DNA of 64,000 bases, from positions 1 to 64,000 of the forward strand of contig NZ_JADKYX010000007.1 of NCBI RefSeq assembly GCF_016093545.1, written 5' to 3'. Position numbers and translations under genes: made by a program. The stretch comes from Massilia rhizosphaerae (lineage in GTDB: Bacteria; Pseudomonadota; Gammaproteobacteria; Burkholderiales; Burkholderiaceae_D). The notes beneath the pieces are model-generated. The model had not been told where the DNA came from. It worked only from the letters and a program-made list of their open reading frames with translations, and ran no database searches. Shown here in pieces: positions 38,183-55,153 of this stretch; the first letter of the stretch is position 1, and the number at the start of each line of letters is the position of its first letter.

Positions 38183-38185
38183 GGT

Positions 38186-39433
38186 TCAACCGCCTGTGTG
38201 CTTGCGGGCGCGCTGCAGGTCGGCCAGCACCGTGCGGACCGAGACCGGCAGGCCCCTGAGTTCTTCGGGGACGTCGATGTTCACGGCCGGCTGCGGCAGG
38301 CTGCCCTTGACGGCTTGCAGCATGCCCGACACTCGCCGGTTCAGCGCCGGATGGCGCAGCAGGAACGGGATCAACGTCTGGCGCATGCGCTCGCTGCGCG
38401 TCACGCGCGTGAGCAGCCGGCGCGCGAGGCCGGGCCGGCGCAGGCGGATGACGAAGCTGCCCACCGCGCGCAGCGGCCGCGTCACCTTCCACGACGTGCT
38501 GTTGTGGGTGGCCGTCAGGCGCGCCTCGAGGTCGCGTGCCCACAGCGTGGCCTGCTGGCCGTTCGCGTGGGCCTGGGCCAGGTCGTGGCGCAGCTGCGCG
38601 ATCTCGGCCAGCGCCTCCTGCTTTTCCAGCTCAAGGTTTTCCGCGAACTGCATCATGTCGTGCAGTTCCGCGCGCGCGGCGTCCGCTTCCTGCTCCGTGG
38701 CGCGCAGGGCGCGCGTCGCTTCCTTGTTCGCGGCCCAGGCCTTGTCGAGGTGGTGCGAGATGTAGTCGTCGAACACGTTCGGCTGGATGCCGAAGCTGTC
38801 CAGCAGTTCCGCGTGTTCCTCGGCCACGTAGTAGCGGTTGAGGCCATCGAACCACGCGTAGCGGTAGCGCCGGCTCGTGACGAGGTGTTCCCAGCTCGCG
38901 TGATTCGTCTCGCGGCTGTTCGGCAGGGTCGCCTCGATCACGAGGATCCACGGCCGCCAGCGCTCGAAATCCATGCCGCGCAGGACTTCGCCCTCGAAGC
39001 CTTCGACGTCGATCTTGAGGAAGTGGACGTCGCCGCGCACGTGTTCTTCGCACACGTCGGCCAGGGTGCGCACGGGCACCGTCAGTTCGGCCACCGCGTG
39101 GCCTTCGGCGCGGTGCTGGTCGGCGACGCTGCGCTCGGGCGACGCCCAGCCGCGCACGGCCGGCACATCGTACAGGGTGAGCGTGCCCGCCGCGCTGCCG
39201 GCGGCGACGGCCAGGTTGACGTCGCCGGGACGCTGTTCGTCGAAGGCGGCAATGTGCGCGGGCAGCGGTTCGATGTTGATGCCGCGCCAGCCGGCGTCGT
39301 AGAAGGCCTTGGTGACCGAGTGCTCGACCGGGTCGTTGGCGCCCACGTCGATGTAGAAGCCGTCCCGGACGTGGCCGAGCGCGCGCCACAGCAGCACGTC
39401 CTCGTTGTTCTGGGCGTAGGAGATGAATCTCAT
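38186..39433 (-). CDS. FkbM-family methyltransferase fused to a coiled coil
   Basis: A 415-residue protein. Residues 1-215 are an FkbM-type SAM-dependent methyltransferase (DGFYIDVGANDPVEHSVTKAFYDAGWRGINIEP as motif I; LKIDVEGFEGEVLRGM as the acidic motif). Residues about 225-300 form a long charged helix likely to be a coiled coil, followed by the NSTSWKVTRPLR motif and a basic tail. Methyl capping fused to a coiled coil recalls WbdD, whose coiled coil sets O-antigen chain length before ABC export. The start overlaps the Wzt stop (ATGA). Confidence 0.87.
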   Translation of the reverse strand: MRFISYAQNNEDVLLWRALGHVRDGFYIDVGANDPVEHSVTKAFYDAGWRGINIEPLPAHIAAFDEQRPGDVNLAVAAGSAAGTLTLYDVPAVRGWASPERSVADQHRAEGHAVAELTVPVRTLADVCEEHVRGDVHFLKIDVEGFEGEVLRGMDFERWRPWILVIEATLPNSRETNHASWEHLVTSRRYRYAWFDGLNRYYVAEEHAELLDSFGIQPNVFDDYISHHLDKAWAANKEATRALRATEQEADAARAELHDMMQFAENLELEKQEALAEIAQLRHDLAQAHANGQQATLWARDLEARLTATHNSTSWKVTRPLRAVGSFVIRLRRPGLARRLLTRVTRSERMRQTLIPFLLRHPALNRRVSGMLQAVKGSLPQPAVNIDVPEELRGLPVSVRTVLADLQRARKHTGG

Positions 39434-40650
39434 GTGCGTTGAATGTCGACGGCCGGGTCGAGCCAGGCCGATCCTTCGAAATACGGACGGCGCATGTTCA
39501 CGACGGTGAACACGAGCGCCAGGTCGCGCCATTCATAGTTGTTGACGAGGTGGGTCTCGGTGCTGACGATGGCCGTCGCCACCGAATAGCTGCCCGGCCC
39601 CAGGTTCATCGGGAACGCGAAGCGGTACACGACTTCCTCGCCGGCCGCCACGTCGTCCAGCGGCAGCTCCTTCAAATGCGTGTTGGTGCCGTACATCGGC
39701 TGGCCGAGGCGGTCCTTGATCATGTAGCCCAGCACCATGCGCGGGATCGCGGCCTTCGTGCGCACCGTCACCTGCAGCGTGACGGGCGCGCCGACGTCGA
39801 CCACTTCCACGCGCTCGCCGTGCTCGTCGAGCAGGGCGATGTCGGCGACGGTCGCCTCGCCGGTGCCGGACACGGTCTGCACCTTGCCCGTGTCCGTCGC
39901 CTGCAGGCGCACGGTGGCATTTTCCCGTTCCGCGATCAGGGCGTTGTAGTAGTCCATGATCTCCTCGGGCGCGCCTTCCTTCGTCAGCCTGCCGCCGTCC
40001 AGCAGCAGGGCGCGGTCGCACACGGACTGGATCGCCTGCTTGTCGTGCGAGACGAGCAGCAAGGTCGTGCCCTGCTGGCGGTAGCGGCGGATGCGGTCGA
40101 AGCTCTTGTGCTGGAAATAGGCGTCGCCGACGGACAGGGCTTCGTCGACGATGAGGATGTCGGGCCGGCGCGCGGTGGCGACGGAGAACGCCACGCGCAT
40201 CTGCATGCCGCTCGAGTACACGCGCACCGGCTGGTCCATGTAGTCGCCGATCTCCGCGAACGCCTCGATTTCCGGCATCAGGGCGGTGATCTCCTCGACC
40301 GTCATGCCGAGCAGCTGGCCCGCCATGTAGACGTTCTGGCGGCCGGTAAAGTCCGGGTGGAAGCCCATGCCCAGCTCCAGCAGCGCGGCCACGCGGCCTT
40401 CCATGTAGACGGTGCCCGTCGTCGGCTGCGTCGTGCCGGTGATCAGCTTGAGCAGGGTGCTCTTGCCGGCGCCGTTGATGCCGATGAGGCCCACGGCTTC
40501 GCCCGGCTTGACGGCAAAGCCGACGTCGCGCAGCACCCATTTCAGCTTGTGGCGCGGGCGGCCCGGGAAGACCCATTCCGCCAGGCGCGACCAGCGCGTC
40601 GGGTACTGCTTGTAGGCCTTGCCCAGGTCCTTGACGACGATCGCGCCCAT
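39430..40650 (-). CDS. wzt: Polysaccharide ABC exporter ATP-binding protein (Wzt) with C-terminal glycan-binding domain
   Basis: A 406-residue protein. The ABC domain (residues about 1-245) has Walker A GINGAGKS, a signature loop in VYSSGMQMR, Walker B ILIVDEAL and the switch His in LVSHD. Residues about 260-406 are a beta-sandwich Wzt C-terminal domain, which in ABC-dependent O-antigen systems recognises the capped non-reducing end of the glycan. This long form therefore implies export of a terminally modified polymer, matching the downstream FkbM methyltransferase. The gene overlaps Wzm by one base and FkbM by four. Confidence 0.93.
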   Translation of the reverse strand: MGAIVVKDLGKAYKQYPTRWSRLAEWVFPGRPRHKLKWVLRDVGFAVKPGEAVGLIGINGAGKSTLLKLITGTTQPTTGTVYMEGRVAALLELGMGFHPDFTGRQNVYMAGQLLGMTVEEITALMPEIEAFAEIGDYMDQPVRVYSSGMQMRVAFSVATARRPDILIVDEALSVGDAYFQHKSFDRIRRYRQQGTTLLLVSHDKQAIQSVCDRALLLDGGRLTKEGAPEEIMDYYNALIAERENATVRLQATDTGKVQTVSGTGEATVADIALLDEHGERVEVVDVGAPVTLQVTVRTKAAIPRMVLGYMIKDRLGQPMYGTNTHLKELPLDDVAAGEEVVYRFAFPMNLGPGSYSVATAIVSTETHLVNNYEWRDLALVFTVVNMRRPYFEGSAWLDPAVDIQRT

Positions 40651-41456
40651 CAGAGTTCGTCCACCATCTCGCCGGCGCGGCGGCGGAACAGGCGCAGGCC
40701 GAACAGGCACAAGGCCGCGGCCAGCACGAACACGGGGAACAGCGAACGCCAGTCGGGCGCGGCGCCCTGCACGAGCACGTCCTGGTAGGCGCCAATGACG
40801 CGCGCCATCGGATTGAAGCCGAGCAGCGCGCGCACGTCGGCCGGCAGGATCGTGGCCGGGTACACGATGGGCGTGAGCCAGAACCAGAACTGCATGGCGA
40901 TCGTGACGAACTGGCCGACGTCGCGGAAGAACACGTTCAGCACGCCGGCGACCATGCCGAGGCCGATCGCCAGCAGCACCTGCACGGCGAGCACGGGCAG
41001 GATCGAAAAATAGACCCAGCCCGGGAAGGTGCCGGACGCGACGAGAAATACGGTGAACAGGCCGAAGATGATGGCGAAGTTGAGCAAGGCGGACAGCACG
41101 ACGATGAGGGGCAGGCAGATGCGCGGGAAGCTGACCTTCTTGATCAGGTTGGCCTGCTCGATGAACATGCCCTGGGCGCGCGCGACGATCTCGGCGAACA
41201 GTCCCCACGTGAGGACGCCCGCGCACAGCCAGATGCTGTAGGCGTAGTGCGCGCCGGCGGCGGCGCCGGGCAGCTTGCTGTGCATGACCTCGGCAAAGAT
41301 CACGGTGTACACGACGATCATCGCGAGCGGCGACAGCAGGGACCACAGCGCGCCCAGCACCGCATTGCTGTACTTCGACTGGAATTCGCGCTTGACGCTG
41401 CCCAGCACGAAGCCGCGGTAGGCCCAGAGGCCGCGCAGCATCAGGGGAGAGATCAT
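40650..41456 (-). CDS. wzm: Polysaccharide ABC exporter permease (Wzm)
   Basis: A 268-residue inner-membrane permease of the ABC-2 family with six predicted transmembrane segments and the N-terminal VKREFQSKYSNAVLGALWSLLSPL amphipathic lead-in typical of Wzm/KpsM/TagG. It pairs with the adjacent Wzt to flip undecaprenyl-linked polysaccharide to the periplasm. It is the first gene of a four-gene operon (Wzm, Wzt, FkbM-coiled coil, glycosyltransferase). The 220 bases upstream, shared with the 3' end of the CRP-family gene, hold AT-rich promoter-like sequence near 41520-41580. Confidence 0.93.
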   Translation of the reverse strand: MISPLMLRGLWAYRGFVLGSVKREFQSKYSNAVLGALWSLLSPLAMIVVYTVIFAEVMHSKLPGAAAGAHYAYSIWLCAGVLTWGLFAEIVARAQGMFIEQANLIKKVSFPRICLPLIVVLSALLNFAIIFGLFTVFLVASGTFPGWVYFSILPVLAVQVLLAIGLGMVAGVLNVFFRDVGQFVTIAMQFWFWLTPIVYPATILPADVRALLGFNPMARVIGAYQDVLVQGAAPDWRSLFPVFVLAAALCLFGLRLFRRRAGEMVDEL

Positions 41457-41676: not shown

Positions 41677-42423
41677 TCAAGCGCCCTGCACGAGTTTTTG
41701 CAGGGCGGCGGGATCGAGGATGACGAGGCGGTTCGATTCCTTCTGGACGATGCCTTGCTGGACGAGGCTCAGCAGGGCACGCGTGACCGTCTCGCGGCTC
41801 GTGTTGATCATGTTCGCGATGTCCTGGTGCGTGGGCAGGTTGTCGATCACGGCCTGGTTGTTTCCGTCCGGCTTTTGCAGGAGCGACAGATAGGTGTAAA
41901 TGCGGCGCGCCGTGTTGTTGATGCTGAGGACCGCGCGGAATTCCGAGTCGCTCTGGATTTTTTGCGCGAGGTGCCGGAGCATCTGCCGGGCCACGCTGGG
42001 CGAATGCGAGAACAGGTGCAGGGCGGTCGCGGCCGGCAGGAAGGCGACGAGCACGTCCGACGTCGCCACCACCGAAGCCGAGCGCGTCGAGTCGTTGATC
42101 AGGGCGATCTCGCCGAAGAAGTCGCCCGGCGCCAGCATGCGCAGGCCGATCGCGCGGCCGTCCTCCGTGATGTCGACGACCTGCAGCTGGCCGGACAGCA
42201 GGAACAGCAGGGCGTCGCCGCTGCCGCCCTTGTGCAGCACGACTTCGCGCTTGTTGAAGTGGCGAAAGCGCAGCTCGGGCCGGATGAGGGCGATCTCGTC
42301 CGGCGTCAGGTCGGCCAGCAGCGGGATCTTGCGCAGGTGGACCTGGATCTGGACGTCCTGCGGCGGTACGGCGCCGTCGCCGGACATGGGATCGAAATGA
42401 GGGACCTTGCTGGGGGAATTCAT
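41677..42423 (-). CDS. CRP/FNR-family transcription regulator with CRP-type recognition helix
   Basis: A 248-residue regulator. The N-terminal cyclic-nucleotide-binding domain (residues about 28-145) has a phosphate-binding cassette FGEIALIN followed by RSA (R114, S115, A116), compatible with cAMP or cGMP binding. There is no Cys cluster, so it is not an oxygen-sensing FNR. The C-terminal winged helix carries SRETVTR (R210, E211, R215), the residues E. coli CRP uses to read TGTGA. Three perfect TGTGA-N6-TCACA sites lie 3.3-7.3 kb away. The gene is monocistronic and transcribed towards the Wzm operon. Confidence 0.92.
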   Translation of the reverse strand: MNSPSKVPHFDPMSGDGAVPPQDVQIQVHLRKIPLLADLTPDEIALIRPELRFRHFNKREVVLHKGGSGDALLFLLSGQLQVVDITEDGRAIGLRMLAPGDFFGEIALINDSTRSASVVATSDVLVAFLPAATALHLFSHSPSVARQMLRHLAQKIQSDSEFRAVLSINNTARRIYTYLSLLQKPDGNNQAVIDNLPTHQDIANMINTSRETVTRALLSLVQQGIVQKESNRLVILDPAALQKLVQGA

Positions 42424-42463
42424 GTGAGCGCCAGGTGACGGACGGGATTGCCAAGTGTGGCCA

Positions 42464-43708
42464 TCAAGGTTGCCATACCCAGCTCAACTGTAGTTGCCGA
42501 TTATTGTACTGAAAGATCTCGATATTTTCCCGGTTTCGTACCGCGCGCGCCTCGAGCTGGAGGCTCTGGTGCTTGTCGATGAGATATGTCAGCTTGCCGC
42601 GCAAGACTTCGGTCGCCTGGTTGCGGATCTGCGGAATCAGCAGTTCGGGCGAGTACGGACGGGCGCTCCGCCATGTCTGGCGCGTATAGGCGAGCTCGCC
42701 GCTCGTCGCTCGCCACAAGTCGCGGCGCACGGCGAGATTCAGGAATTGGCCGTGGCGGTTGCCGCCCGGACGCCGAGCATCGCCATGGTCGTCCAGCAGG
42801 CCCAGGCTGGCGCTGCCGGACAGGCCGCCGGCGCGGTACGACCATTCCGGGCGCAGTTCGAACGTGCGCGAATCGAAATTGTCCAGACGCAGGTAATTAT
42901 TGAACGTCACGCCCGCCATCAGGTTGAGCAGCATGTTGTTCGGCAGCGACAGCGGCGGCTCGACGCGCATCTGGCCCTGCGCCTGGCGCTGGTACAAATG
43001 GCCGCCCAGGCTCACCATGCCGCCCGCGCCCGTGAGGCGCATGGCCCAGCGGTCAAAGCGCCAGGGCGATTCCACGCCGGCGAAGAGGGAGCTGGTGTCC
43101 CATGCGTGCAAATGATCGTTGCGGCGCCATTGCACCTGGGCGAAGCCGATCGTGCCGTTCGGCGTCACGTCGCGCAAGTAGTCCAGGCCGCCGGTCGTGT
43201 AGCTGTCGTGCTTGGGCAGGAAGTCGTCCACGAGCGGCAGTTCGATGGCGCCGCCGTCCAGGCGCAGCGTGGACGTGCTCGCGCCCTGGTTGACGTTGCG
43301 GTCGTGGCCGCGGCCGAACGAGATCGACATCGTGCTGTTCGCAACCCACGGATGGCAGCCATCCTCGCGCGTCTGCGCGATCAGCTCCAGGATCTCGCGC
43401 GACGGCGCGAAGCGCGTCTCGACGGTGGCGAACAGGCGCTCGGCCTCGTCGGCATTGCCCAGGCTGCACTGGATCAGGGCCAGGTCCAGCCAGGCGCCCG
43501 CATGGCGCGGCGCTTCGCCGATCAGGCGCCGCAGCAGCTGCGAGGCATCCGTGCGGCGGCCTTCGGACAGCGCCTGCAATGCCTGCTGGTACAGGCTCTG
43601 CTGCTCGGTCTGGGACGTATTCGGGGCGTCGGCGGAAAGGTCTTCGGCGGCATGCGCGCCCGCCAGCGTGAGCGACGCCAGCAGCGCCGCGATGGGGCGG
43701 CGCATCAT
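42464..43708 (-). CDS. TPR plus outer-membrane beta-barrel protein
   Basis: A 414-residue exported protein. The signal peptide (about 1-20) is followed by two or three TPR-like helical repeats (about 35-125, YQQALQALSEGRRTDASQLLRRLI) and a beta-strand-rich C-terminal part (about 130-414) with alternating aromatic residues ending in WVWQP, an outer-membrane barrel pattern. The layout resembles surface-lipoprotein-assembly-modifier (Slam/DUF560-like) proteins, but that match is by architecture only. It overlaps the upstream cyclase gene by four bases (ATGA), so the two are translated together. It could be an outer-membrane partner of the neighbouring secretion locus. Confidence 0.75.
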   Translation of the reverse strand: MMRRPIAALLASLTLAGAHAAEDLSADAPNTSQTEQQSLYQQALQALSEGRRTDASQLLRRLIGEAPRHAGAWLDLALIQCSLGNADEAERLFATVETRFAPSREILELIAQTREDGCHPWVANSTMSISFGRGHDRNVNQGASTSTLRLDGGAIELPLVDDFLPKHDSYTTGGLDYLRDVTPNGTIGFAQVQWRRNDHLHAWDTSSLFAGVESPWRFDRWAMRLTGAGGMVSLGGHLYQRQAQGQMRVEPPLSLPNNMLLNLMAGVTFNNYLRLDNFDSRTFELRPEWSYRAGGLSGSASLGLLDDHGDARRPGGNRHGQFLNLAVRRDLWRATSGELAYTRQTWRSARPYSPELLIPQIRNQATEVLRGKLTYLIDKHQSLQLEARAVRNRENIEIFQYNNRQLQLSWVWQP

Positions 43709-45609
43709 TGGATGGATCCGACTGGGCCGCCGACCGGCCGGGGAGGAACGTGGGTACTGCCTTCCTGCTTCATGCTGGGTGCAAACGTATAAAGAATGGT
43801 TGGATGTTCCTTGCCGCGCAGCCGGCGCTCGCCCAGCAGGATGAATGCATGGCGCAGGGCCCGCTCGACCGTGCCGGCGCCGATGATGACGTCGTGGGGG
43901 AATTCGCGCGCCACTTGTTCCAGGCGGGACGCGGTGTTAACGCTGTCGCCAACCGCAGTATAAATGCTGCGGAACGAAGTGCCAAAATCCCCGGCCATCG
44001 CGGGACCGCTGTCGATGCCGATGCGCACGCGCAGCGGCTTGAATCCGGCGGCCTCGTGCCGGCTGCTCAACGCGGCCACGCGCCGCTCGATCTCGCGCGC
44101 CGCGTCCAGCGCCAGATCGGCGTGGTCGGCGATCGGCAGCGGGGCGCCCCAGAACGCGACGAGGCCGTCGCCCGTGTATTTGTCGAGCGTCCCCATCTTT
44201 TCGATCACGGGGCCGGTCAGGCAATCGAGGAAGTCGCGCGTCAGGCGTGCCGCCGCTTCGATGGGCAGCGCTTCCACCTGGCTCGTATAGCCTTCCATGT
44301 CGGCGATGAGGGTCGTCACGTCGAGCTGGCGCGGCTTCAAGGGGTCTTCGGTTTCGCTGAGCAGTAATTGCTCGACGACGGCCGGGGCGACGTACTGGCG
44401 CAGGGTCGACAGCAAATGGCGCGAGCGGCGCTGGGTTTGCTGCCATTGGTACGGCACGGCCACGGCCAGCAGGAACAGGTTGGTGGCCAGCGGGCCGGTG
44501 GGCGAGAAATCGGGATCGTGCGGGCTGGCGGCGTACGCGATGGCCAGCCATAGCACCGTGCTGGCGGCCAACAGGCCGACGCCGGCCGCCGCGGCCAGGC
44601 GCGGGAAGGCGAACGTCGCCACGGCCGTGCTCAGGAGCGCGAAGGCACAGGCCAGCAGCTTGCCGGGCCAGGGCCCGGGCGCGCGGCCGGCCTGTATGTC
44701 GAGCAGGGTCGACAGCATGGTCGCGTGCACGCCCAGGCCGGGACGGTTCGCCGCGAGCGGCGTGGACACGCGATCCGCCATGCCCAGCGACGACGACCCG
44801 ACGATGACGAGGCGGCCGCTTGCGCCGGCCGGATCGAGCGTGCCGTCGAGGATGTCGGCCGCGCTCACGACCGTATAGGCATTCCAGTCGCGCGCGAAGT
44901 CGACGCGCATCATGCCGGTGGTCGGCAGCGCCATCGGTCCCTTGCCGGCGCAGCAATCGACGAGGGCCAGCGCCAGCGCCGGGTAGTGCCGGCCTTCATA
45001 TTCCGTGTACAACGGCAGCCGGCGCAGCGCGCCGTCCGGGTCCGGAATGAACCCGATGGCGCCCACGCGGGCGGCGCCGGCCAGCGTCGGATAATTGCCG
45101 ATGTAGCCTGTGGCGTGTACGCCGCCGGCGATGCCGGCCTCGGCGCCGCCGAGCGTCCCCACGCGTACCGGTAACGCACGCGTCCGGCTGAAATCGAAGG
45201 CCTGGGCCGGCACGACGGGACCGTGGCGGGCCAGCAGGGCAAGGCGGGTGTCGCCTTCGGCGTCGGCCGCCTCGGGCAGCAGGATGTCGAGCGCGACGCC
45301 GCGCGCATGGTAGGTCGTCAGCAGGATCTCGACGAGGTCGGCGACGCGCGCGCGGGGCCAGGGCCAGGGGCCGACCTTGTTCAGGCTCGCTTCGTCGATG
45401 TCCACCACCAGCACCCGCGGTTCCGGGGCCATGACGACGCGCATCCGAATGAAGGCGTCGCGCATCCACTCGCCGGGCAGGAACGCGCCAGTGGGGAGCG
45501 GCAGCCATTGCGCCGCGACGGTCAGCAGGACGGCCGCCGCGGCGATCAGCCAGCGCAGCCGAGCGCGTCCGGCGCGCGCGGGCACGGGCGTGGCGGAAGA
45601 GAAAGACAT
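43705..45609 (-). CDS. CHASE2-domain class III adenylate/guanylate cyclase
   Basis: A 634-residue membrane enzyme with one N-terminal transmembrane helix (about 18-40) and a periplasmic CHASE2 sensor (about 50-320, RVLVVDIDEASLNKVGPWPWPR). Three further transmembrane helices are at about 330-400. The cytoplasmic catalytic domain has metal Asp residues in IADMEGYT and TGDG, a base-contacting Lys in LDKYTGDG, and transition-state Asn/Arg in VNTASRLE. The second base-contact position, usually Asp before YT, is Ile (RSIYT), so nucleotide preference is uncertain. It is divergent from the FecR gene, and a CRP-type site lies between them. Confidence 0.9.
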   Translation of the reverse strand: MSFSSATPVPARAGRARLRWLIAAAAVLLTVAAQWLPLPTGAFLPGEWMRDAFIRMRVVMAPEPRVLVVDIDEASLNKVGPWPWPRARVADLVEILLTTYHARGVALDILLPEAADAEGDTRLALLARHGPVVPAQAFDFSRTRALPVRVGTLGGAEAGIAGGVHATGYIGNYPTLAGAARVGAIGFIPDPDGALRRLPLYTEYEGRHYPALALALVDCCAGKGPMALPTTGMMRVDFARDWNAYTVVSAADILDGTLDPAGASGRLVIVGSSSLGMADRVSTPLAANRPGLGVHATMLSTLLDIQAGRAPGPWPGKLLACAFALLSTAVATFAFPRLAAAAGVGLLAASTVLWLAIAYAASPHDPDFSPTGPLATNLFLLAVAVPYQWQQTQRRSRHLLSTLRQYVAPAVVEQLLLSETEDPLKPRQLDVTTLIADMEGYTSQVEALPIEAAARLTRDFLDCLTGPVIEKMGTLDKYTGDGLVAFWGAPLPIADHADLALDAAREIERRVAALSSRHEAAGFKPLRVRIGIDSGPAMAGDFGTSFRSIYTAVGDSVNTASRLEQVAREFPHDVIIGAGTVERALRHAFILLGERRLRGKEHPTILYTFAPSMKQEGSTHVPPRPVGGPVGSIQ

Positions 45610-45755
45610 CGGGGAAGGTGCGCCGTGGACGATCGAATTGTTATCTTTTTTTTTGGGGAAGCAAGGAGTATAGCGTCACAACTTAACGAATATCATTATT
45701 CTTTGTCAACAACTCGTCTTAAAAATTGACGGTAAATGGCCGAGAGGGCTTACAA

Positions 45756-45771
45756 TGTGACGGTTATCACA
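45756..45771 (+). promoter_or_regulatory. Perfect CRP-type site upstream of the FecR gene
   Basis: TGTGA-CGGTTA-TCACA matches the CRP consensus exactly. Its centre (45763.5) is about 42 bases before a start predicted from the -10-like TAAATT at 45794-45799, the class II activator geometry. A second promoter-like pair, TTGACG (45726) and TACAAT (45751), would place the site over the start point instead, giving repression. It lies in the gap shared with the divergent cyclase gene. Confidence 0.7.
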
Positions 45772-45818
45772 GATGTTGCGCGGTTAGGCAAGCTAAATTT
45801 GGCGAAAAGGGGAAATGT

Positions 45819-47168
45819 ATGTGGCGTGTAATTATCCTTGGCGCAATTGCTTGCATGGCTCATCTGGCTCAGGCGGCTGAGGCCGGCAAGGTCATTTTCG
45901 TGGCCGGCAAGGCCAACGTGGCCGAGCAGCCGGCCGTCGACGGGGCGCCGGTCGGCGAGGGGCAGATGCTGAGCACGGGGGCCGACGGCTTCCTGTACGT
46001 GAAGACGATCGACAATGGCCTGTTCATCCTGCGCCCGAACACGAAGGCCCGGATCGTCACCTATCACGTGGACACGAAGAACCCGGCGAATACCCAGGTC
46101 AAATTGGAGTTGCTGAGCGGCGTGGCGCGCAGCAAGTCGGGTACGGCCGTCAAGCAGGCGCGCCAGAATTTCCGTTTCAATACCCCGGTCGCGGCCATCG
46201 GCGTGCGCGGCACGGACTTCACCGTGTTCACCGACAACGACACGTCGCGCGTGGCCGTCATTTCCGGCGCCATCGTGATGAGCGGTTTCGCCGACAGCTG
46301 CCGTCGGGACGGCGCGGGCCCCTGCACGGGTAGCGCCAGCCGCGAACTGAGCGCGGCCCAGCGTGGCCAGCTGCTGCAGTTGCAGCGCGGCCAGGTCACG
46401 CCGCAACTGCTGCAGAGCAGCCCGCTGTCGCCCGATCAGGTATCGCCGCCGCGCTCGGACGAGCCGCTTGCCCATGGCACGGGCGGCGGGGCCAATTCCG
46501 CGACGGGACAGCCGAATCTCGATGCGCAGAAGACGGTCAGCCTGAACGATGCGATCAACAAGACCCCGGCGCCGCCCGTATTGCCGCCTCCGGTCGTGAC
46601 GCCGACGCCGACGCCGGCACCGGCAACGATCGCATTGCCGGACCGCGGCATCGTGTGGGGGCGTTGGCAAGTGGTCGCGAGCAGGCCGCCCAACTTCAAC
46701 TTGACGAATATCCGGGACGACAACGATTTGCTCGCATTGAGCGGCAATTATGCGCTCTTGCGCACGCGTGGCCCCGATACCTATGTGGCGCCGAACAATG
46801 GCAGCATCGGCTTTCAGTTGCGCAGCAGCGAAGCGTTCGTCTATACGGATTACACGCCGACGTATCGCGTGGAAACGCCGGCGACGCTGAGCAATGGCAC
46901 GCTGAGCGTCGATTTCGGGAAACAGAGTTTTGCCACGAGTGCCGATCTGGCGAGCCAGGCCGGCAACGCGAAACTGCAGGCGACGGGCGTCGTCGGTGCG
47001 GACGGCCGGCTGTTTGGCGATGCCGCCGCGGGCCGGGTCGGCTATATCAATGTGCAGGGCCTGCTGAGCAGCCAGAACGGCGGATCGGCGGCCTATATCT
47101 TCGACGGGCGCCTGGACGATAAGCGCACGGTCAACGGCGTGACATATTGGGAACGGCCCGCACACTGA
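45819..47168 (+). CDS. FecR-domain exported protein
   Basis: A 449-residue protein from the ATG at 45819 (AAAAGGGGA before it; an upstream in-frame start adds an unlikely Cys-rich leader). The signal peptide ends near AQAAEA (about residue 18-20). A FecR-type beta domain spans about 22-150 (GKVIFVAGKANV, then FNTPVAAIGVRGTDFTV, a hallmark). A Pro/Thr-rich linker at about 250-275 and a beta-rich C-terminal domain (about 280-449) follow. Stand-alone FecR proteins often neighbour CHASE2 cyclases, as here. It probably acts in the periplasm, perhaps as a sensor component. A strong terminator follows. Confidence 0.88.
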   Translation: MWRVIILGAIACMAHLAQAAEAGKVIFVAGKANVAEQPAVDGAPVGEGQMLSTGADGFLYVKTIDNGLFILRPNTKARIVTYHVDTKNPANTQVKLELLSGVARSKSGTAVKQARQNFRFNTPVAAIGVRGTDFTVFTDNDTSRVAVISGAIVMSGFADSCRRDGAGPCTGSASRELSAAQRGQLLQLQRGQVTPQLLQSSPLSPDQVSPPRSDEPLAHGTGGGANSATGQPNLDAQKTVSLNDAINKTPAPPVLPPPVVTPTPTPAPATIALPDRGIVWGRWQVVASRPPNFNLTNIRDDNDLLALSGNYALLRTRGPDTYVAPNNGSIGFQLRSSEAFVYTDYTPTYRVETPATLSNGTLSVDFGKQSFATSADLASQAGNAKLQATGVVGADGRLFGDAAAGRVGYINVQGLLSSQNGGSAAYIFDGRLDDKRTVNGVTYWERPAH

Positions 47169-47190
47169 GCGCCGCCATATGGACAAAAAA

Positions 47191-47217
47191 ACTCCGGTCA
47201 AGCCGGAGTTTTTTTTT
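47191..47217 (+). terminator. Rho-independent terminator after the FecR gene
   Basis: ACTCCGG (47191-47197), loop TCAAG, CCGGAGT (47203-47209) followed by eight further T residues. An A-run before the stem lets it extend and makes the element potentially bidirectional. Confidence 0.92.
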
Positions 47218-47579
47218 GACGTTTTATCGCAACAAAACGATTGTCGGAATTTTGTTTCAAAACGTATCCGATTAAATACGATTTCGCTGATCAATTCATA
47301 AAAAAACATGCCGATGGGCGTGAGTATTCGCGAGTTTTTATGCTCCAAAGCGCTAAAAGACCCGTATTCTTGCATTCAATTCAAGTCTCTCGGATAATGT
47401 TGTCCCTGATTGGCTGTTCAAAACTTCACGACAGAACACAATCGTCCGCAAATGTGATGATCGTCACATCTTCGTGTGTGTTGCATCTGTCATGATGCGG
47501 AGCGTTGGGCGGCAGACACACTTCAGAGCCTGCTGTTTGATATACATCTACTGATCGATCGATCTACATTGGAGCAATA
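47218..47579 (+). promoter_or_regulatory. Promoter region of the large DUF4214 gene
   Basis: 362 bases without a gene, AT-rich at the left. It contains the CRP-type site at 47453-47468, a -10-like CATGAT at 47491-47496, an expected start near 47503, and the ribosome-binding GGAG at 47571-47574. The predicted untranslated leader of about 77 bases includes the self-complementary GATCGATCGATC near 47553-47564, which may form a small structure. Confidence 0.55.
47453..47468 (+). promoter_or_regulatory. Perfect CRP-type site upstream of the DUF4214 gene
   Basis: TGTGA-TGATCG-TCACA, an exact CRP consensus palindrome. The centre (47460.5) is about 42 bases upstream of the start predicted from CATGAT at 47491-47496, fitting class II activation. 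Confidence 0.75.
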
Positions 47580-49592
47580 ATGGCAACGACTTACTACAAC
47601 GACATTCAAAAGCTGTACGTGGCGTACTTCAACCGTCCGGCTGACCCGGGTGGTCTGGCTTTCTGGGAAACCACCGTCGAAGCAGCTGCTGGTAGCACCG
47701 CTGCCGTGTCGGCTGCTTTCGCTGGTTCGGATGAATACAAGGCTACCTTCGCCAACCAGACCAACGCACAGATCGTCAACACCGTCTACATGAACCTGTT
47801 CGGCCGCGCTGCCGAAGACGCAGGCAAGGCTTACTGGGCCGACCTGCTGGACAAGGGCACCCTCACCATCGACGCAGTCGTGACCGCAATCGCCCAAGGC
47901 GCACAAGGTTCCGACATGACCGCCTACAACAACAAGGTGACCGCTGCTGCAGCCTTCACCGCGGCCGTCGACACCGACGCGGAAAAAACCGGCTACAGCG
48001 GCGGCGACGCCAACAAGGTCGCCAAGACCTTCCTGGCTGGCGTGACCGACAACGCCTCGCTGCAAGCTGCGACCGCTCCGGCCGCTCTGAACACCAGCGT
48101 CGCCGCCGCAGTGGCCGCCGGCACCCCGTTCACCGTCGCAGGTGCACTGAACACGCTGAACGCCGCCCACGCCGCCGTGGACAGCTTCCTGGGCGGCCTG
48201 AAGCTGGACGCCGCCGGCGTCGCAACCGCTCAGTCCACCGCAGTGACCAAGATCGCCGCCGACCTGACCGCCGACACCTCGGGCGCATCGACCACCCTGT
48301 TCACCAACACCACGTCGCAGACCGTGCGTGACGCCCTGGTCGCTTCGCAGGAATCGGCCAACGCTGATGCTCTGAACGCTGCTCAGAAGGTCGTGTCGGA
48401 CGACAACACCGCAATCTCGAAAGTGACCGGCCTGACCTCCGCTGAGTCGACCCTGACCGCCGCGCAGACCGCCCTGACGGCTGCTCAGAAGGCTGAAACC
48501 TCGGCACATGCTGACCTGGTCGCCAAGGAAGCCGCGTTCTCCGTGAACAATGGCGGCGACGCCAACACCAGCGTGACCAGCGATGGCACCAGCCTGTCGT
48601 ATGTCAAGGGTGGCACGCCGGTCGTTCTGGCAACCATCGATGTCAACGGCAAAGCCACGATCGCTGACGGCGTCGACGCAACCAAGTACACCGGCCTGAC
48701 CGACCTGATCGCCTCGTTCAACACCGAAAACACGGCTACCATCGGCGTGTCGAAGGCACAGACGAACGTGGACAATGCGCACCTGGGCGTCAACCTGCTG
48801 GACGTCGCTCCGGATTCGACTGGCGTCGTCGGCGCCACCGGCGATACCGAAGCGCAACTGATCGCTGCCATCTCGGCCCAGATCAACGCCACCACGCCGA
48901 ACACCGTGGCATCGAGCGCAACCCCGACCGTCGCGCAGATCCAGACCGAACTGGCTGTCCTGAAAGCGACGGACATGAATGCGTACACCAGCTTCAAGGC
49001 CCTGGTCGATGCTGAAACCGCTTCGGGCGATGACTTCAACCCGCTGATCTCCAAGCTGGCTACCGACATGGGCACCGCGAAAACCGCCAGCGATGCGATC
49101 GCTGCCCTGGCAAAAGACGTCGCCGCCCTGCAGACCGCTACCGCCAACGTCAACACCCTGGCTGGCCTGCAAGCAACCAGCGACGCAGCCGCCAAGCTGC
49201 TGACCGACAAGGGCTATAGCGTCGTCACGCTGGACGCCGCTCACGCCGCTTCGTTCGGTACCGCTGCTTCGGACGTCTTCGTGACCGCCAAGACCGACGC
49301 GACCATCGGCGCATTCGGCCTGCAAGGCACGGACGCACTGGCCGTCGGCAAAGGCTTTACGCTGGTTCAAGGTGCAATCGGCGCCAACGGCGTGACCGCC
49401 AACGACGCTGCACTGGAAATCTTCGTCAGCCAGCAAGGTGGCGATGCCCAGCTGCAGATCGAAAACCACGCTTACAGCTCGAACGTCGCTGGCACCGCTG
49501 GCGAAGTCTTCACCATCATCCTGACCGGTGTCGACGCTTCGTCCCTGCACCTGGACAGCAACGGCATCATCACGTCGAGCACCACCGCCTAA
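47580..49592 (+). CDS. Large DUF4214 surface protein, probable type I secretion substrate
   Basis: A 670-residue protein with no N-terminal signal peptide. Residues about 1-115 hold DUF4214-type helical units (LYVAYFNRPADPGGLAFWE and VYMNLFGRAAEDAGKAYW). The long middle is Ala/Thr/Asp-rich, with coiled-coil-like stretches around residues 255-310. I saw no Cys and no RTX nonapeptides. The C-terminus (EVFTIILTGVDASSLHL, then SSTTA) looks like a type I secretion signal. Codon use is extremely uniform (CTG, ACC, GCC), suggesting very high expression. It is followed by its own terminator and then the type I exporter operon. An S-layer-like or adhesin role is inferred. Confidence 0.85.
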   Translation: MATTYYNDIQKLYVAYFNRPADPGGLAFWETTVEAAAGSTAAVSAAFAGSDEYKATFANQTNAQIVNTVYMNLFGRAAEDAGKAYWADLLDKGTLTIDAVVTAIAQGAQGSDMTAYNNKVTAAAAFTAAVDTDAEKTGYSGGDANKVAKTFLAGVTDNASLQAATAPAALNTSVAAAVAAGTPFTVAGALNTLNAAHAAVDSFLGGLKLDAAGVATAQSTAVTKIAADLTADTSGASTTLFTNTTSQTVRDALVASQESANADALNAAQKVVSDDNTAISKVTGLTSAESTLTAAQTALTAAQKAETSAHADLVAKEAAFSVNNGGDANTSVTSDGTSLSYVKGGTPVVLATIDVNGKATIADGVDATKYTGLTDLIASFNTENTATIGVSKAQTNVDNAHLGVNLLDVAPDSTGVVGATGDTEAQLIAAISAQINATTPNTVASSATPTVAQIQTELAVLKATDMNAYTSFKALVDAETASGDDFNPLISKLATDMGTAKTASDAIAALAKDVAALQTATANVNTLAGLQATSDAAAKLLTDKGYSVVTLDAAHAASFGTAASDVFVTAKTDATIGAFGLQGTDALAVGKGFTLVQGAIGANGVTANDAALEIFVSQQGGDAQLQIENHAYSSNVAGTAGEVFTIILTGVDASSLHLDSNGIITSSTTA

Positions 49593-49628
49593 TTGACCGG
49601 CCCGCAAGGGCAAGTCGTTAGCCGAGAA

Positions 49629-49658
49629 CCCCGCCTTCGCAAGAAGGCGGGGTTTTTT
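49629..49658 (+). terminator. Rho-independent terminator after the DUF4214 gene
   Basis: CCCCGCCTTC (49629-49638), loop GCAA, GAAGGCGGGG (49643-49652), then six T. The perfect 10-bp stem with a GNRA tetraloop separates the abundant surface-protein mRNA from the exporter operon. Confidence 0.95.
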
Positions 49659-49719
49659 CTTTACCGTCCGTTGTCTTGTGCCCTGAACGCGACTCTTTTA
49701 GAATGTTCGAGTCAAAAAA

Positions 49720-49735
49720 TGTGACGTGGATCACA
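49720..49735 (+). promoter_or_regulatory. Perfect CRP-type site upstream of the secretion operon
   Basis: TGTGA-CGTGGA-TCACA, flanked by A and T runs that extend the dyad. A -10-like GATAAT at 49755-49760 predicts a start near 49767, about 40 bases from the site centre, again class II geometry. It lies 93 bases before the ABC-transporter ATG. Confidence 0.75.
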
Positions 49736-49827
49736 TTTTTTATGTTTTTTCGTGGATAATGTGCACGCAGGCCATTTTCTATGCCTAAGCGTCGAAATGG
49801 CGGCCCTTGACCTGTCACGCGAGATAC

Positions 49828-51597
49828 ATGAAAAAATTCCTGAATCCAAAAACCGAGATTGGGCGCATCCTGCTCAGTTTCAAAGGCACGTTCTACACGG
49901 TGGGGACGTTCAGCGCGATCATCAACCTGCTCGCGCTGATTCCTTCGCTCTACATGCTGCAGGTCTACGACCGCGTCCTGTCGAGCCGCAACGAGATCAC
50001 GTTGCTGATGCTCACGTTGATGATGCTCGGCGGTTACCTGTTCTCGTCGGCGCTGGAGCTGATCCGTTCGTTCGTGCTGGTGCGTGTGGGTGCGCAGTTC
50101 GACATGCGGCTCAACAAGCGCCTGTACACGGCCGCCTTCGAGCAAAACCTCAAGCAGGCTGGCAGCAACGCCGGCCAGGCATTGTCCGACTTGACGACCT
50201 TGCGCCAGTTCCTCACCGGTAACGCGCTGTTTGCCTTCTTCGATGCGCCCTGGTTCCCGATCTACCTGATCGTCATTTACTTCTTCGAGCCCTGGCTGGG
50301 CGTGTTCGCGACGTGCGGCGTCGTCGTGCTGGTGATCCTGGCGATCGTCAACGAACGCGTGACCTACCAGCCGCTGAAGGAAGCCAACAGCATGGCGATT
50401 GCGTCCAACACGGCCGCCACCAACAACCTGCGCAACGCCGAGGTCATCGAATCGATGGGCATGCTGCCGAACCTGATGGCGCGCTGGTTCAAGCTGCATG
50501 GCAAGTTCTTGACCCTGCAGGCGCAGGCCAGCCAGAAGGCCGGCACCATCACTGCCGTTACCAAGTTCTTCCAGATGGGACTGTCGTCGTCGGTGCTGGG
50601 CCTTGGCGCGCTGCTCGTGCTCGACAATAAGATCACCTCCGGCATGATGATCGCCGCTTCGATCCTGCTGGGCCGCACGCTGGCGCCGGTGCAGCAGTTG
50701 ATCGGCGTGTGGAAGAGCTGGGGCAGCACACGCAGCGCGTTCGATCGCCTGACCTTGCTGCTGGAAACCAACCCGGCCCGCGAAGCCGGCATGGAATTGC
50801 CGAAGCCGGAAGGTCGCCTGAGCGTGGAAGGCGTGCATGCCGCGCCGCCGGGCGTGCGCAGCCCGGTGGTCAAGGGCGTCTCGTTCGCGATCCAGCCCGG
50901 CGACGTGCTGGGCGTGATCGGGCCGAGCGGCTCGGGCAAGTCGACCCTGGCACGGCTGATGGTGGGCGTGTGGCCCACGATGGTGGGCAAGGTGCGCCTG
51001 GACGGCGCCGACATCTATGCCTGGAACAAGGCCGAGCTCGGTCCTCACGTCGGCTACCTGCCGCAGGACATCGAGCTGTTCAGCGGCACGGTCGCCGAGA
51101 ACATCGCCCGCTTCGGCGAGATCGATTCGGAAAAAGTCGTGCTGGCGGCCAAGCGCGCCGGCGTGCACGACCTGATCCTGCACTTCCCTGAAGGCTATGA
51201 CACCAAGCTGGGCGACGGTGGTGCCGGCCTGTCCGGCGGCCAGAAGCAGCGCCTCGGCCTGGCGCGTGCCATGTACGGCGATCCTGCCCTGATCGTGCTG
51301 GACGAGCCGAACTCGAACCTGGACGACGTGGGCGAACAGGCCCTCGTGAACGCCGTGCTCGACCTGCGTCAGCGCGGCAAGACGATCGTGCTGATCACGC
51401 ACCGTCCGAGCGCGATCAGTTCCACGACCAAGCTGCTGCTGATGAACGACGGCGCGGTGCAGATGTTCGGCCCCACCAAGGACGTGCTGGCGGCGCTCAA
51501 CGAAGCGAACCAGAAAGCCCTGGCGGCCCAGCAGGCGGCGCAGCAGCAGCGCGCCGCCGCCGGCGCCCAGCCGGGCGGCACGACTGCCGCAGCCTGA
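49828..51597 (+). CDS. Type I secretion ABC transporter (PrtD/HlyB-like, no C39 domain)
   Basis: A 589-residue inner-membrane exporter. The transmembrane domain (residues about 15-310, first helix TVGTFSAIINLLALIPSLYML) and the ATPase domain (about 335-565) have Walker A GPSGSGKST, signature LSGGQKQR, Walker B LIVLDEP and the switch His in ITHRPS. The N-terminus MKKFLNPKTEIGRIL is the PrtD/AprD type without a peptidase domain, so substrates keep a C-terminal uncleaved signal. An Ala/Gln-rich tail ends the protein. The start at 49828 is preferred over 49807. It is the first gene of a three-gene exporter operon. Confidence 0.95.
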   Translation: MKKFLNPKTEIGRILLSFKGTFYTVGTFSAIINLLALIPSLYMLQVYDRVLSSRNEITLLMLTLMMLGGYLFSSALELIRSFVLVRVGAQFDMRLNKRLYTAAFEQNLKQAGSNAGQALSDLTTLRQFLTGNALFAFFDAPWFPIYLIVIYFFEPWLGVFATCGVVVLVILAIVNERVTYQPLKEANSMAIASNTAATNNLRNAEVIESMGMLPNLMARWFKLHGKFLTLQAQASQKAGTITAVTKFFQMGLSSSVLGLGALLVLDNKITSGMMIAASILLGRTLAPVQQLIGVWKSWGSTRSAFDRLTLLLETNPAREAGMELPKPEGRLSVEGVHAAPPGVRSPVVKGVSFAIQPGDVLGVIGPSGSGKSTLARLMVGVWPTMVGKVRLDGADIYAWNKAELGPHVGYLPQDIELFSGTVAENIARFGEIDSEKVVLAAKRAGVHDLILHFPEGYDTKLGDGGAGLSGGQKQRLGLARAMYGDPALIVLDEPNSNLDDVGEQALVNAVLDLRQRGKTIVLITHRPSAISSTTKLLLMNDGAVQMFGPTKDVLAALNEANQKALAAQQAAQQQRAAAGAQPGGTTAAA

Positions 51598-51629
51598 CGC
51601 GTAGCGGTGATGACCCGAGAAGGACAACA

Positions 51630-52982
51630 ATGAAATTGCTGAAAAACGACGTGGCGGAAGTCGTCTCACATGACGTGACGCCGCTGGAAGTAAACACGGA
51701 TGCACGCGCATTCAGCCGCATCGGCTGGTTGATCGTCGTGCTTGGGCTCGGCGGCTTCCTCGCCTGGGCCTTGTTCGCGCCGCTGGACAAGGGCGTACCG
51801 CTGTCGGGTACGGTTGCCAAGGAATCGAACCGCAAGGCGATCCAGCACCAGATGGGCGGCATCGTCAAGGAAATCCTCGTCAAGGACGGCGACGTCGTCA
51901 AGGCGGGGCAGGTGCTCGTGCGCATGAATGGCGTGCTGGCCAAGTCGGCCTACGAGACGAGCGAAGCGCAATACCTGACGGCGCGCGCCAGCGAGGCGCG
52001 CCTGATTGCGGAACGCGACGGCCTGAAAACGATCACGTTCCCGGACGAATTGGAACGGCGCAAGAACGAGCCGCGTATCGCCGAGTTGATGGCCCTGCAG
52101 AGCCAGCTGTTCACGTCGCGCCGGATGTCGCTGCAGAACGAGCTGGGCAGTGTGGACGAAAACATCGCCGGCCTCAAGGATCAGATCAAGAGCCTGGAAG
52201 AAGCGCGCGACAGCAAGAAGGCCGAGATGGGCTACCTCAAGGAGCAGCTGGACGGCATGCGCGACCTCGCCAAGGAAGGCTATGTGGCGCGTAACCGTCT
52301 GCTCGACCTGGAACGGACCTACGCCCAGCTGAGCGGCCAGATCTCGGAAGACATCGGCAACATCGGCCGTTCGCGCCGCCAGGTGCTCGAGCTGAGCCTG
52401 CGCAAGGCCCAGCGTACCCAGGACTACCAGAAGGAAGTGCGGACCCAGCTGTCAGACGTCGAACGGGAGGCCGAGGCGCTCGGCGCCCGCATGGAAGGCC
52501 AGAAATTCGAAGTCGACAACGTCGAGGTCAAGTCGCCCGTCGACGGCACCGTGACGGGCCTGGCCGTGTTCACCCAGGGTGGCGTGGTCCAGCCCGGCTT
52601 CAAGATGATGGAAATCGTTCCGACGAACGATCCGCTCGTCATCGAAGGCAATCTGGCCGTCAACCTTGTCGACCGCGTCCACCGGGGCCTCAAGACCGAG
52701 CTGATCTTCTCGGCGTTCAACGTCAACAAGACCCCGCACATCGAAGGCCAGGTCGAGGAAGTGGCGGCCGACCGCAGCGTCGACGAGCGCACCGGCGCGC
52801 CTTACTACAAGGTGCGCGTGCGGGTGACGCCGGCCGGCCAGAAGATGATCGCCGAGCACCACATGGACGTGCGTCCCGGCATGCCGGTGGAACTGTTCGT
52901 CAAGACGGGCGAGCGTACGCCGATCAACTATCTGCTGAAACCGATCTTCGACCGCGCCCGGTCGTCGATGGCGGAGGAGTGA
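51630..52982 (+). CDS. HlyD-family type I secretion membrane-fusion protein
   Basis: A 450-residue periplasmic adaptor of the PrtE/AprE type. It has a short cytoplasmic N-terminus, one transmembrane helix at about residues 31-52 (WLIVVLGLGGFLAWALF), a lipoyl half-motif, a long alpha-helical hairpin (about 120-275), a second lipoyl half and a beta-barrel domain ending in the family hallmark HHMDVRPGMPVELFVKTGERT. It bridges the ABC transporter and the TolC-like channel. It lies 32 bases after the ABC gene with GAGAAGGA before the ATG, and overlaps or abuts the TolC-like gene. Confidence 0.95.
   Translation: MKLLKNDVAEVVSHDVTPLEVNTDARAFSRIGWLIVVLGLGGFLAWALFAPLDKGVPLSGTVAKESNRKAIQHQMGGIVKEILVKDGDVVKAGQVLVRMNGVLAKSAYETSEAQYLTARASEARLIAERDGLKTITFPDELERRKNEPRIAELMALQSQLFTSRRMSLQNELGSVDENIAGLKDQIKSLEEARDSKKAEMGYLKEQLDGMRDLAKEGYVARNRLLDLERTYAQLSGQISEDIGNIGRSRRQVLELSLRKAQRTQDYQKEVRTQLSDVEREAEALGARMEGQKFEVDNVEVKSPVDGTVTGLAVFTQGGVVQPGFKMMEIVPTNDPLVIEGNLAVNLVDRVHRGLKTELIFSAFNVNKTPHIEGQVEEVAADRSVDERTGAPYYKVRVRVTPAGQKMIAEHHMDVRPGMPVELFVKTGERTPINYLLKPIFDRARSSMAEE
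52973..52979 (+). promoter_or_regulatory. Ribosome-binding site deciding the TolC-like start
   Basis: GGAGGAG lies inside the last codons of the HlyD-family gene. A GTG at 52979 overlaps it and would have no spacing, whereas the TTG at 52985 has a normal 5-7 base gap. This favours the TTG start and coupled translation. Confidence 0.55.
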
Positions 52983-52984
52983 GC

Positions 52985-54346: not shown

Positions 54347-54577
54347 GTGCGCGGCGGCGCCATCCCGGCGCTGCCGTCTCTCCGCCTCCACTTACGTCGC
54401 AAAATCGTTGCGCATATGCAAATTGCGTGGAATTAACATTTTCCAAAATGCAGTAAGTGACCACTTCCTCTAAGAAATAGTATCCATGCGGAACATGGGC
54501 TGGCACAGCTGTGTTCGTGGCGCCACTGCTGTGCCGATTCATGTACCATTTCCTCACATTTTGACATGGAGGCAATG

Positions 54578-55153
54578 ATGGCAACGACGATCGAACAGAC
54601 AGTGGAACAGTTGTATATTGCATACTTCAGCCGCCCCGCGGATCCGAAGGGGCTGGCGTACTGGGAGAACGTGCTGACGACCAATCCCGATGGCGTGCAG
54701 CAGATTTCCGCGGCATTTGCCGGCTCGCAGGAATACAAGGACACGTATGCGGGGCTGGACAACACGGGCGTCGTGCAGGCTGTCTACCACAACCTGTTCG
54801 GCCGGGCCGGCGAGCAGGCAGGTGTGGATTACTGGGTCAATTTGCTGAACAACCACACGATCACCGTCGACAACGTCGTCACCACCATCGCTAGCGGGGC
54901 GCAGAACAGCGACAAGCTCGTCTACGACGGCCGCGTGGCCGTGGCGACGTCATTCACGGCGCACGTCGACCAGCCCGCCGAGATCGCAGCCTATTCGGGC
55001 ACGGCGGCGAACGTCCAGGCCAAGGCATTCATCGGCACGATTGTCGACTTGCAGAGCGCGGCTTATGCGATCGACCCGGGCGTGATCGACACCAAGATCG
55101 CCGAGATCGTCGGCAGCGCGACCGGCACCAACGTACCGCATCACCTGGCCTGA
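54578..55153 (+). CDS. Small DUF4214-domain protein
   Basis: A 191-residue protein from the ATG at 54578 (GGAGG at 54568-54572; ATGs at 54566 and 54575 are too close to or upstream of it). Its N-terminal half parallels the large protein at 47580: QLYIAYFSRPADPKGLAYWE and VYHNLFGRAGEQAGVDYWV. It is essentially one DUF4214 unit plus an Ala-rich helical tail, without the long middle or the hydrophobic C-terminal signal. It is a paralogue arising by duplication of the N-terminal module. No CRP-type site was found upstream. It may be a co-secreted partner or a binding cap. Confidence 0.85.
   Translation: MATTIEQTVEQLYIAYFSRPADPKGLAYWENVLTTNPDGVQQISAAFAGSQEYKDTYAGLDNTGVVQAVYHNLFGRAGEQAGVDYWVNLLNNHTITVDNVVTTIASGAQNSDKLVYDGRVAVATSFTAHVDQPAEIAAYSGTAANVQAKAFIGTIVDLQSAAYAIDPGVIDTKIAEIVGSATGTNVPHHLA

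Follow-up and report, generated by a model that had tools for sequence, protein, structure and literature searches.

A putative single-locus cyclic AMP circuit with three CRP-type promoters in a type I secretion cluster of Massilia rhizosphaerae

The stretch of DNA analysed here, referred to as the window, comprises 64,000 nt from Massilia rhizosphaerae, and the cluster of interest within it (41677-54346) encodes a CRP-type regulator, a cyclase with a CHASE2 domain, a FecR-domain protein, a DUF4214 protein and an exporter of the type I secretion class. Exact CRP-type palindromes stand before three genes of this cluster, and their sequence, spacing and distribution among related genomes point to the local regulator as their probable reader. 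The features of the cluster, including the domains found when ten window proteins were scanned against Pfam profiles, are as follows.

41677-42423, minus strand: CRP-type regulator, 248 amino acids (Pfam cNMP_binding 73.9 bits and HTH_Crp_2 58.9 bits, both over the cut-off)
42464-43708, minus strand: TPR protein with an N-terminal TPR part and a predicted 14-strand beta-barrel, predicted to lie in the outer membrane
43705-45609, minus strand: CHASE2-domain class III cyclase (Pfam CHASE2 152.6 bits, Guanylate_cyc 33.9 bits)
45756-45771: CRP-type palindrome TGTGACGGTTATCACA of the FecR promoter, in the intergenic stretch common to the FecR gene and the divergent cyclase operon
45794-45799, plus strand: -10-like hexamer TAAATT, its first base 30.5 bp past the site centre
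45819-47168, plus strand: FecR-domain envelope protein, 449 amino acids (Pfam FecR 43.7 bits; N-terminal signal-like segment by eye)
47453-47468: CRP-type palindrome TGTGATGATCGTCACA of the DUF4214 promoter, exact match
47491-47496, plus strand: -10-like hexamer CATGAT, its first base 30.5 bp past the site centre
47580-49592, plus strand: DUF4214 protein, 670 amino acids (Pfam DUF4214)
49635-49662, plus strand: terminator-like hairpin and T-run, 3' of the DUF4214 gene
49720-49735: CRP-type palindrome TGTGACGTGGATCACA of the exporter promoter, exact match
49755-49760, plus strand: -10-like hexamer GATAAT, its first base 27.5 bp past the site centre
49828-51597, plus strand: type I secretion ATP-binding cassette (ABC) exporter, PrtD type (NCBIfam TIGR01842 772 bits, cut-off 510)
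51630-52982, plus strand: HlyD-type periplasmic adaptor (NCBIfam TIGR01843 404 bits, cut-off 209)
52979-54346, plus strand: TolC-type outer-membrane channel (NCBIfam TIGR01844 339 bits, cut-off 225)

The cyclase, TPR and regulator genes run divergently from the FecR gene, with a 4-base overlap between the first two and a gap of 40 bases between the last two, and they look like one operon. A promoter scan on the divergent side gave two minus-strand promoter-like matches against 1.0 in shuffled sequences, which is not strong evidence for a cyclase promoter. The hairpin and T-run downstream of the DUF4214 gene would leave the exporter as a transcription unit of its own, while the number of terminator-like sites in the region, three against 5.4 in shuffles, is not above chance. 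The open reading frame of the exporter ABC gene had been listed from a TTG at 49807, and the ATG at 49828, in the same frame, is the likelier start.

An earlier note on this DNA had claimed three exact TGTGA-N6-TCACA palindromes, at 45756, 47453 and 49720, and none elsewhere in the window. A pattern scan bore this out, and each of the three sites lies before a plus-strand gene. When two mismatches were allowed, the window contained six matches against 14.9 expected, so it is the exactness and the clustering of the sites that are remarkable, not the number of loose matches. The genome-wide density comparison proposed in the same note was also run: the whole genome (7,001,290 bases in 59 contigs) contains four exact palindromes, three of them inside the same 4-kb stretch, while the reversed control pattern gave one match. 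The fourth site (TGTGAAAATTTTCACA, C13:139068) lies between a clpS-like and a cold-shock-type gene, both named from reading their translations. With at most one mismatch to TGTGAYN4RTCACA the genome gave ten sites against five for the reversed control, and weak extra targets are therefore inseparable from background. No site within three mismatches was found upstream of the small DUF4214 gene that follows the exporter operon (54566-55153, 195 amino acids; best upstream match with four mismatches), nor directly before the regulator gene. The regulator probably has few other targets in this genome.

The conservation of the sites was then compared among 195 genomes of the family (G and L numbers below are our handles for genomes and loci), of which 42 carry a close regulator homologue (at least 63% identity), giving 43 loci with the window's own included. 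Stretches around all 56 regulator matches other than the window's own, close and distant, were fetched, and the window proteins were aligned to each. The check, which the earlier note had suggested, showed that the sites recur at all three promoters. Among the close relatives the exact site was present in 34 of 36 DUF4214 promoters and in 28 of 30 exporter promoters, the remaining two of the latter having one mismatch; at the FecR promoter it was exact in 22 of 42 and within one mismatch in 39 of 42. The exact site was missed at two DUF4214 loci (L081, L087); in each, the best DUF4214 match is a gene beyond the exporter, and an exact palindrome lies between the FecR gene and the exporter. The three promoters contained none of 29 arm-permuted control palindromes, and TGTGA ranked first among the 1024 possible five-base arms at each of them (22, 34 and 28 occurrences at the FecR, DUF4214 and exporter promoters, against 2, 2 and 5 for the runner-up). 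A second set of named loci, partly from the same genomes, gave a similar picture: among the best 80 of 182, the site was exact in 37 of 72 FecR promoters (70 of 72 within one mismatch), 63 of 66 DUF4214 promoters and 33 of 33 exporter promoters, the three DUF4214 misses being L143, L150 (one mismatch) and L181. The nearest regulator among the named loci found is that of Massilia kyonggiensis, with 92% identity. Some relatives have two exact palindromes before the exporter (L249, L251, L258, L259, L092, L093, L099).

The promoters were compared in the same way. If the first base of each hexamer is taken as -12, the site centres fall at -42.5, -42.5 and -39.5 for the FecR (TAAATT, 45794), DUF4214 (CATGAT, 47491) and exporter (GATAAT, 49755) promoters. 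At class II promoters the -10 element is expected at an offset of 29.5 from the site centre. Relatives were scored for hexamers matching TATAAT in at least four of six positions, with the offset counted from the site centre; such hexamers started at 28.5 in 24 and at 29.5 in 13 of 41 FecR promoters, at 30.5 in 16 and at 31.5 in 12 of 34 DUF4214 promoters, and at 27.5 in 17 of 30 exporter promoters, these counts not being additive because neighbouring offsets can both score in one promoter. The hexamers that the earlier note had placed at class II spacing are present, and similar spacing recurs in relatives; with predicted starts at 45806, 47503 and 49767, the three promoters appear to fit the class II architecture of CRP-dependent promoters. 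With a site that overlaps the -35 region, bound regulator might instead keep polymerase out and repress the three promoters until a signal lifts the repression. This seems distinctly improbable given that each of the three promoters, like those of many relatives, has a -10-like hexamer at the distance expected for class II activation, and activation is the effect considered below.

To see how the sites are distributed, genomes with and without the regulator were compared. The 42 genomes with a close regulator contain on average 3.3 exact palindromes (0.45 for the reversed control), and 88 of their 137 palindromes fall inside the fetched regulator stretches. The mean was 1.1 (control 0.61) in 138 genomes with neither a regulator match at E 1e-30 nor a cyclase match at E 1e-60; the other 15 of the 195 genomes were omitted from this comparison, 14 having a regulator of 35-43% identity and one (G044) a cyclase only. 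Exporter orthologues were found in 58 of the 195 genomes at E 1e-180, and their promoters follow the same pattern. With each genome counted once, the exact site was present in 37 of 40 genomes with a close regulator, two others having one mismatch, and in 11 of 11 with a regulator of 38-43% identity. Seven exporter genomes have no regulator match; one was unreadable at a contig edge, and the exact site was present in one of the other six. Taken together, the exporter site is exact in 48 of the 51 genomes that have a regulator homologue, against one of the six that lack one (Fisher p 7.6e-5, a value that ignores relatedness). For these counts the row L235 (G046) was dropped as a contig-edge artefact, and L247, which repeats G058 (already represented by L060), was not counted again. 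The pairing of the regulator with the sites is strongly supported by these sequence comparisons.

The sites could in principle look conserved simply because the genomes inherited one block of DNA from a common ancestor or acquired it by recent transfer, and the gene order is indeed common to many of the examined genomes. Several observations make this extremely improbable. The palindrome centres vary while the arms stay constant, with distinct central hexamers in 21 of 22 FecR, 24 of 34 DUF4214 and 16 of 28 exporter sites, invariably of the form Y-N4-R, which means that the arms themselves are kept, and not merely a block of DNA. The exporter lies outside the fetched regulator stretch in 12 of the 42 close-regulator genomes; ten of these 12 have it elsewhere or just beyond, and the exact site persists in nine of the ten. 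The 11 exact exporter promoters that accompany regulators of only 38-43% identity argue in the same direction.

Individual genomes showed further arrangements. G120 (L239) keeps the ABC-2 permease, TPR and exporter genes and the FecR gene in two matched pieces, while the regulator, cyclase, DUF4214 gene and palindrome were not found in the stretch, as in a natural loss. In G126 and G139, of the same genus, neither the regulator nor the cyclase nor the exporter gave a match at the cut-offs applied. A two-mismatch palindrome, as expected for a decaying site, lies upstream of the exporter in G070 (L237), where no regulator was detected. In G193 (L056) a second regulator copy, with 71% identity, stands alone, the other cluster genes not being found in its stretch.

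The regulator contains the recognition helix RETVTR, as the earlier note had stated, and the alignment places R210, E211 and R215 at the positions of Arg180, Glu181 and Arg185 of E. coli CRP. These three residues and V213 are invariant in all 43 close relatives (own locus included) and in 14 of 14 distant relatives. The genome has 12 matches to the cNMP domain and 13 to HTH_Crp_2, eight of the latter over the cut-off. CRP motifs are common across bacteria, and the sites might serve another, global regulator of the CRP/FNR type, with the neighbouring gene being incidental. Among the CRP/FNR-type matches of the genome with an alignable helix, only the window regulator has R-E-x-x-x-R; the helices of the others are FNR-like or different, and L265 has R-E without the last arginine. 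This, together with the presence of just four exact sites in the genome and the way the sites track the regulator across genomes, renders a global regulator a very improbable reader. The local regulator is most likely the reader of the three sites, as judged from sequence.

The phosphate-binding cassette of the regulator (FFGEIALINDSTRSA) has a canonical look when set beside that of E. coli CRP, a protein whose adenine contacts are Thr127 and Ser128. E105 and R114, at the positions of Glu72 and Arg82, are invariant in the 43 close relatives, and S115, at the position of Ser83, is conserved as Ser in 39 and replaced by Thr in four. The positions of Thr127 and Ser128 are occupied by D159 and S160, both in 43 of 43. 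Asp159 may be compatible with adenine, as it could accept the amino group, and it would repel the carbonyl of guanine. The best-scoring solved sequences for the cyclase are adenylate cyclases (1wc1, 1wc0, CyaB), and of 41 close relatives, 40 retain its metal residues D437 and D481 and its substrate residues K477 and T551, while one has a gap at these positions. The Lys/Thr pair is one that characterises a particular class of adenylate cyclases. The earlier note's placing of a CHASE2 membrane cyclase between the regulator and the sites agrees with these residues and with the CHASE2 and Guanylate_cyc domains, and the protein is probably an adenylate cyclase. It is present in all 42 close-regulator genomes and in three of the 153 others (G044, G054, G068).

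Other members of the CRP family use other ligands, and the regulator might bind the three sites with cyclic GMP, cyclic di-GMP or no ligand at all, the neighbouring cyclase then being no partner of it or making another product. The replacement of Thr127 by Asp and the relatives that have the regulator without a neighbouring cyclase would be in line with this. The conserved cassette, the Asp/Ser pocket with its expected preference against guanine, the adenylate-cyclase residues and the co-occurrence of the cyclase with the regulator speak against it, and we hold such a ligand to be unlikely. Cyclic AMP (cAMP) appears to be the likeliest ligand on the same grounds.

The presumed output of the locus is the DUF4214 protein, which is free of cysteine, Ala/Thr-rich (21% alanine) and without a GGxGxD repeat. 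Its gene has biased codon usage, the effective number of codons being 28.8, equal lowest of the 14 window genes tested. A structure model (predicted local distance difference test score, pLDDT, 89.7) is helical with a C-terminal beta part; it gave no Foldseek match among solved structures at E <=0.001, and the sequence had no match at E <=1 to solved surface-layer (S-layer) proteins of the RsaA type. All three components of the PrtD/HlyD/TolC exporter score over their NCBIfam cut-offs, and the adjacency and shared control make it probable that the DUF4214 protein is the substrate of this type I system. A function in adhesion, or one like that of an S-layer, would be a guess. The genes that adjoin the regulator on the other side (35282-41456), which are glycosyltransferase-like, methyltransferase-like and ABC-2 permease/ATPase genes (the permease by Pfam, the others by eye), resemble a locus for polysaccharide export. 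In many relatives, too, the ABC-2 permease gene is found close to the regulator, a hint that this polysaccharide could be what the secreted protein attaches to.

The TPR-barrel protein, with its TPR part and 14 predicted strands, has a layout that resembles that of type XI secretion proteins (Slam, DUF560). It had no match to the Slam TPR or DUF560 families at E <=10, and no homologue in the plasmid collection at E 0.01.

These features can be arranged into one circuit. The TPR-barrel protein in the outer membrane, together with FecR, would sense something at the cell surface, and the signal would pass through the periplasmic CHASE2 domain to the membrane class III adenylate cyclase. The cAMP produced would bind the local regulator, which would then bind the three palindromes and, as a class II activator, recruit RNA polymerase to the FecR, DUF4214 and exporter promoters. 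As a result, the DUF4214 protein would be made and exported in a coordinated way, and the place of FecR within the regulon could provide feedback. In this scheme we infer cAMP as the ligand, an envelope stimulus as the input and activation as the effect, all from domains, residues and site positions. We consider the circuit as a whole to be probable.

Several observations weigh against this circuit or parts of it. The regulator scores far short of an orthologue of E. coli CRP (75.5 bits against the NCBIfam CRP equivalog cut-off of 266), and with Asp at the position of Thr127 its contact with adenine would depart from the textbook pattern. The FecR site is the weakest of the three, being exact in about half of the close relatives and having at least two mismatches in three of 42, and the window's own FecR hexamer, at 30.5, lies one to two bases beyond the commoner offset in relatives. 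G009 has the regulator and no exporter site (contig end, 270 upstream bases readable), while G065 (86% complete) has an exact exporter site and no detected regulator. Some relatives have the regulator and the exporter with no cyclase in the stretch (L092, L099, L216-L220). In the wider order, 20 of 21 regulator loci were readable, nine of these 20 had an exporter in the stretch, and an exact site lay just before the exporter in five of the nine. The genome also holds one other class III cyclase (C34:345487). The description of the regulon as self-contained in the earlier note is fair, and it does not hold strictly, given this second cyclase and the 12 genomes with the exporter outside the regulator stretch. 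On a broader reading, the split receptor, the cyclase, the cAMP receptor and essentially all targets would form one inheritable protein-secretion switch, gained or lost as a unit and conserved across numerous genomes of Massilia, Duganella and their relatives; we lean slightly towards this reading.

The closest known system is the pathway of Sinorhizobium meliloti from NsrA through the CHASE2 cyclases CyaD1, CyaD2 and CyaK to Clr, which, in the passages that describe it, likewise combines a CHASE2 adenylate cyclase, signal entry through an outer-membrane beta-barrel, a FecR gene, a TPR element and a CRP-family regulator whose gene lies near that of a CHASE2 cyclase (PMC5498481, PMC13001267). 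According to the same passages, Clr binds TGTTN8AACA or the looser HGTYHCNNNNGRWACA, and not the TGTGA-N6-TCACA of the window, where the fourth base is G while both published Clr boxes need T or Y; the Clr regulon described there is also wide, with succinoglycan and motility genes, whereas the output in the window is a type I secretion unit (PMC5498481, PMC13001267). CyaK and the window cyclase share 30% identity over 87% of the latter. On pSymB of S. meliloti (L260, 2264-7785) a single-chain FecR-TPR gene precedes cyaK with a one-base overlap, in contrast to two separate genes in the window. The gene before cyaK is presumably nsrA; the best BLASTP match of the TPR-barrel protein to this FecR-TPR protein had E 0.039 over 31 residues. 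A cluster of Campylobacterota, with a CHASE2 cyclase, a phosphodiesterase, FecR and TPR genes, has been read as one pathway and has the three sensing components together as in the window, while the passages on it mention neither DNA sites nor a CRP regulator or secretion genes in the cluster (PMC9239204). The phosphodiesterase belongs to that cluster, and none was found among the ten scanned window proteins.

The window regulator shares with E. coli CRP the RET-R helix, the phosphate-binding cassette, the TGTGA-N6-TCACA site and a site centre near -41.5, and differs from it in the Asp at the Thr127 position and in low overall similarity. E. coli CRP is a global regulator, whereas the circuit proposed here is one locus. 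The exporter corresponds to known PrtD/HlyD/TolC type I secretion systems, and the presumed substrate is unlike theirs in having DUF4214 and no GGxGxD repeat. Our literature search, judged by titles and the starts of abstracts and with subscription papers mostly outside it, found no paper on this locus; the term DUF4214 occurred in four of the papers covered. Signalling by cAMP from CHASE2-FecR modules through a CRP-family regulator is already known; what gives the present circuit its interest is that the regulon appears to be confined to its own locus. While cAMP-CRP regulation is usually taught as global, here an E. coli-like specificity is found with an apparent target list of three promoters, all in the regulator's own cluster. 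The full path from signal to secretion, with a sensor that would reach the outer membrane, is small enough to be rebuilt, and it would give CHASE2-FecR modules a use beyond symbiosis and predict how a secreted DUF4214 family is controlled.

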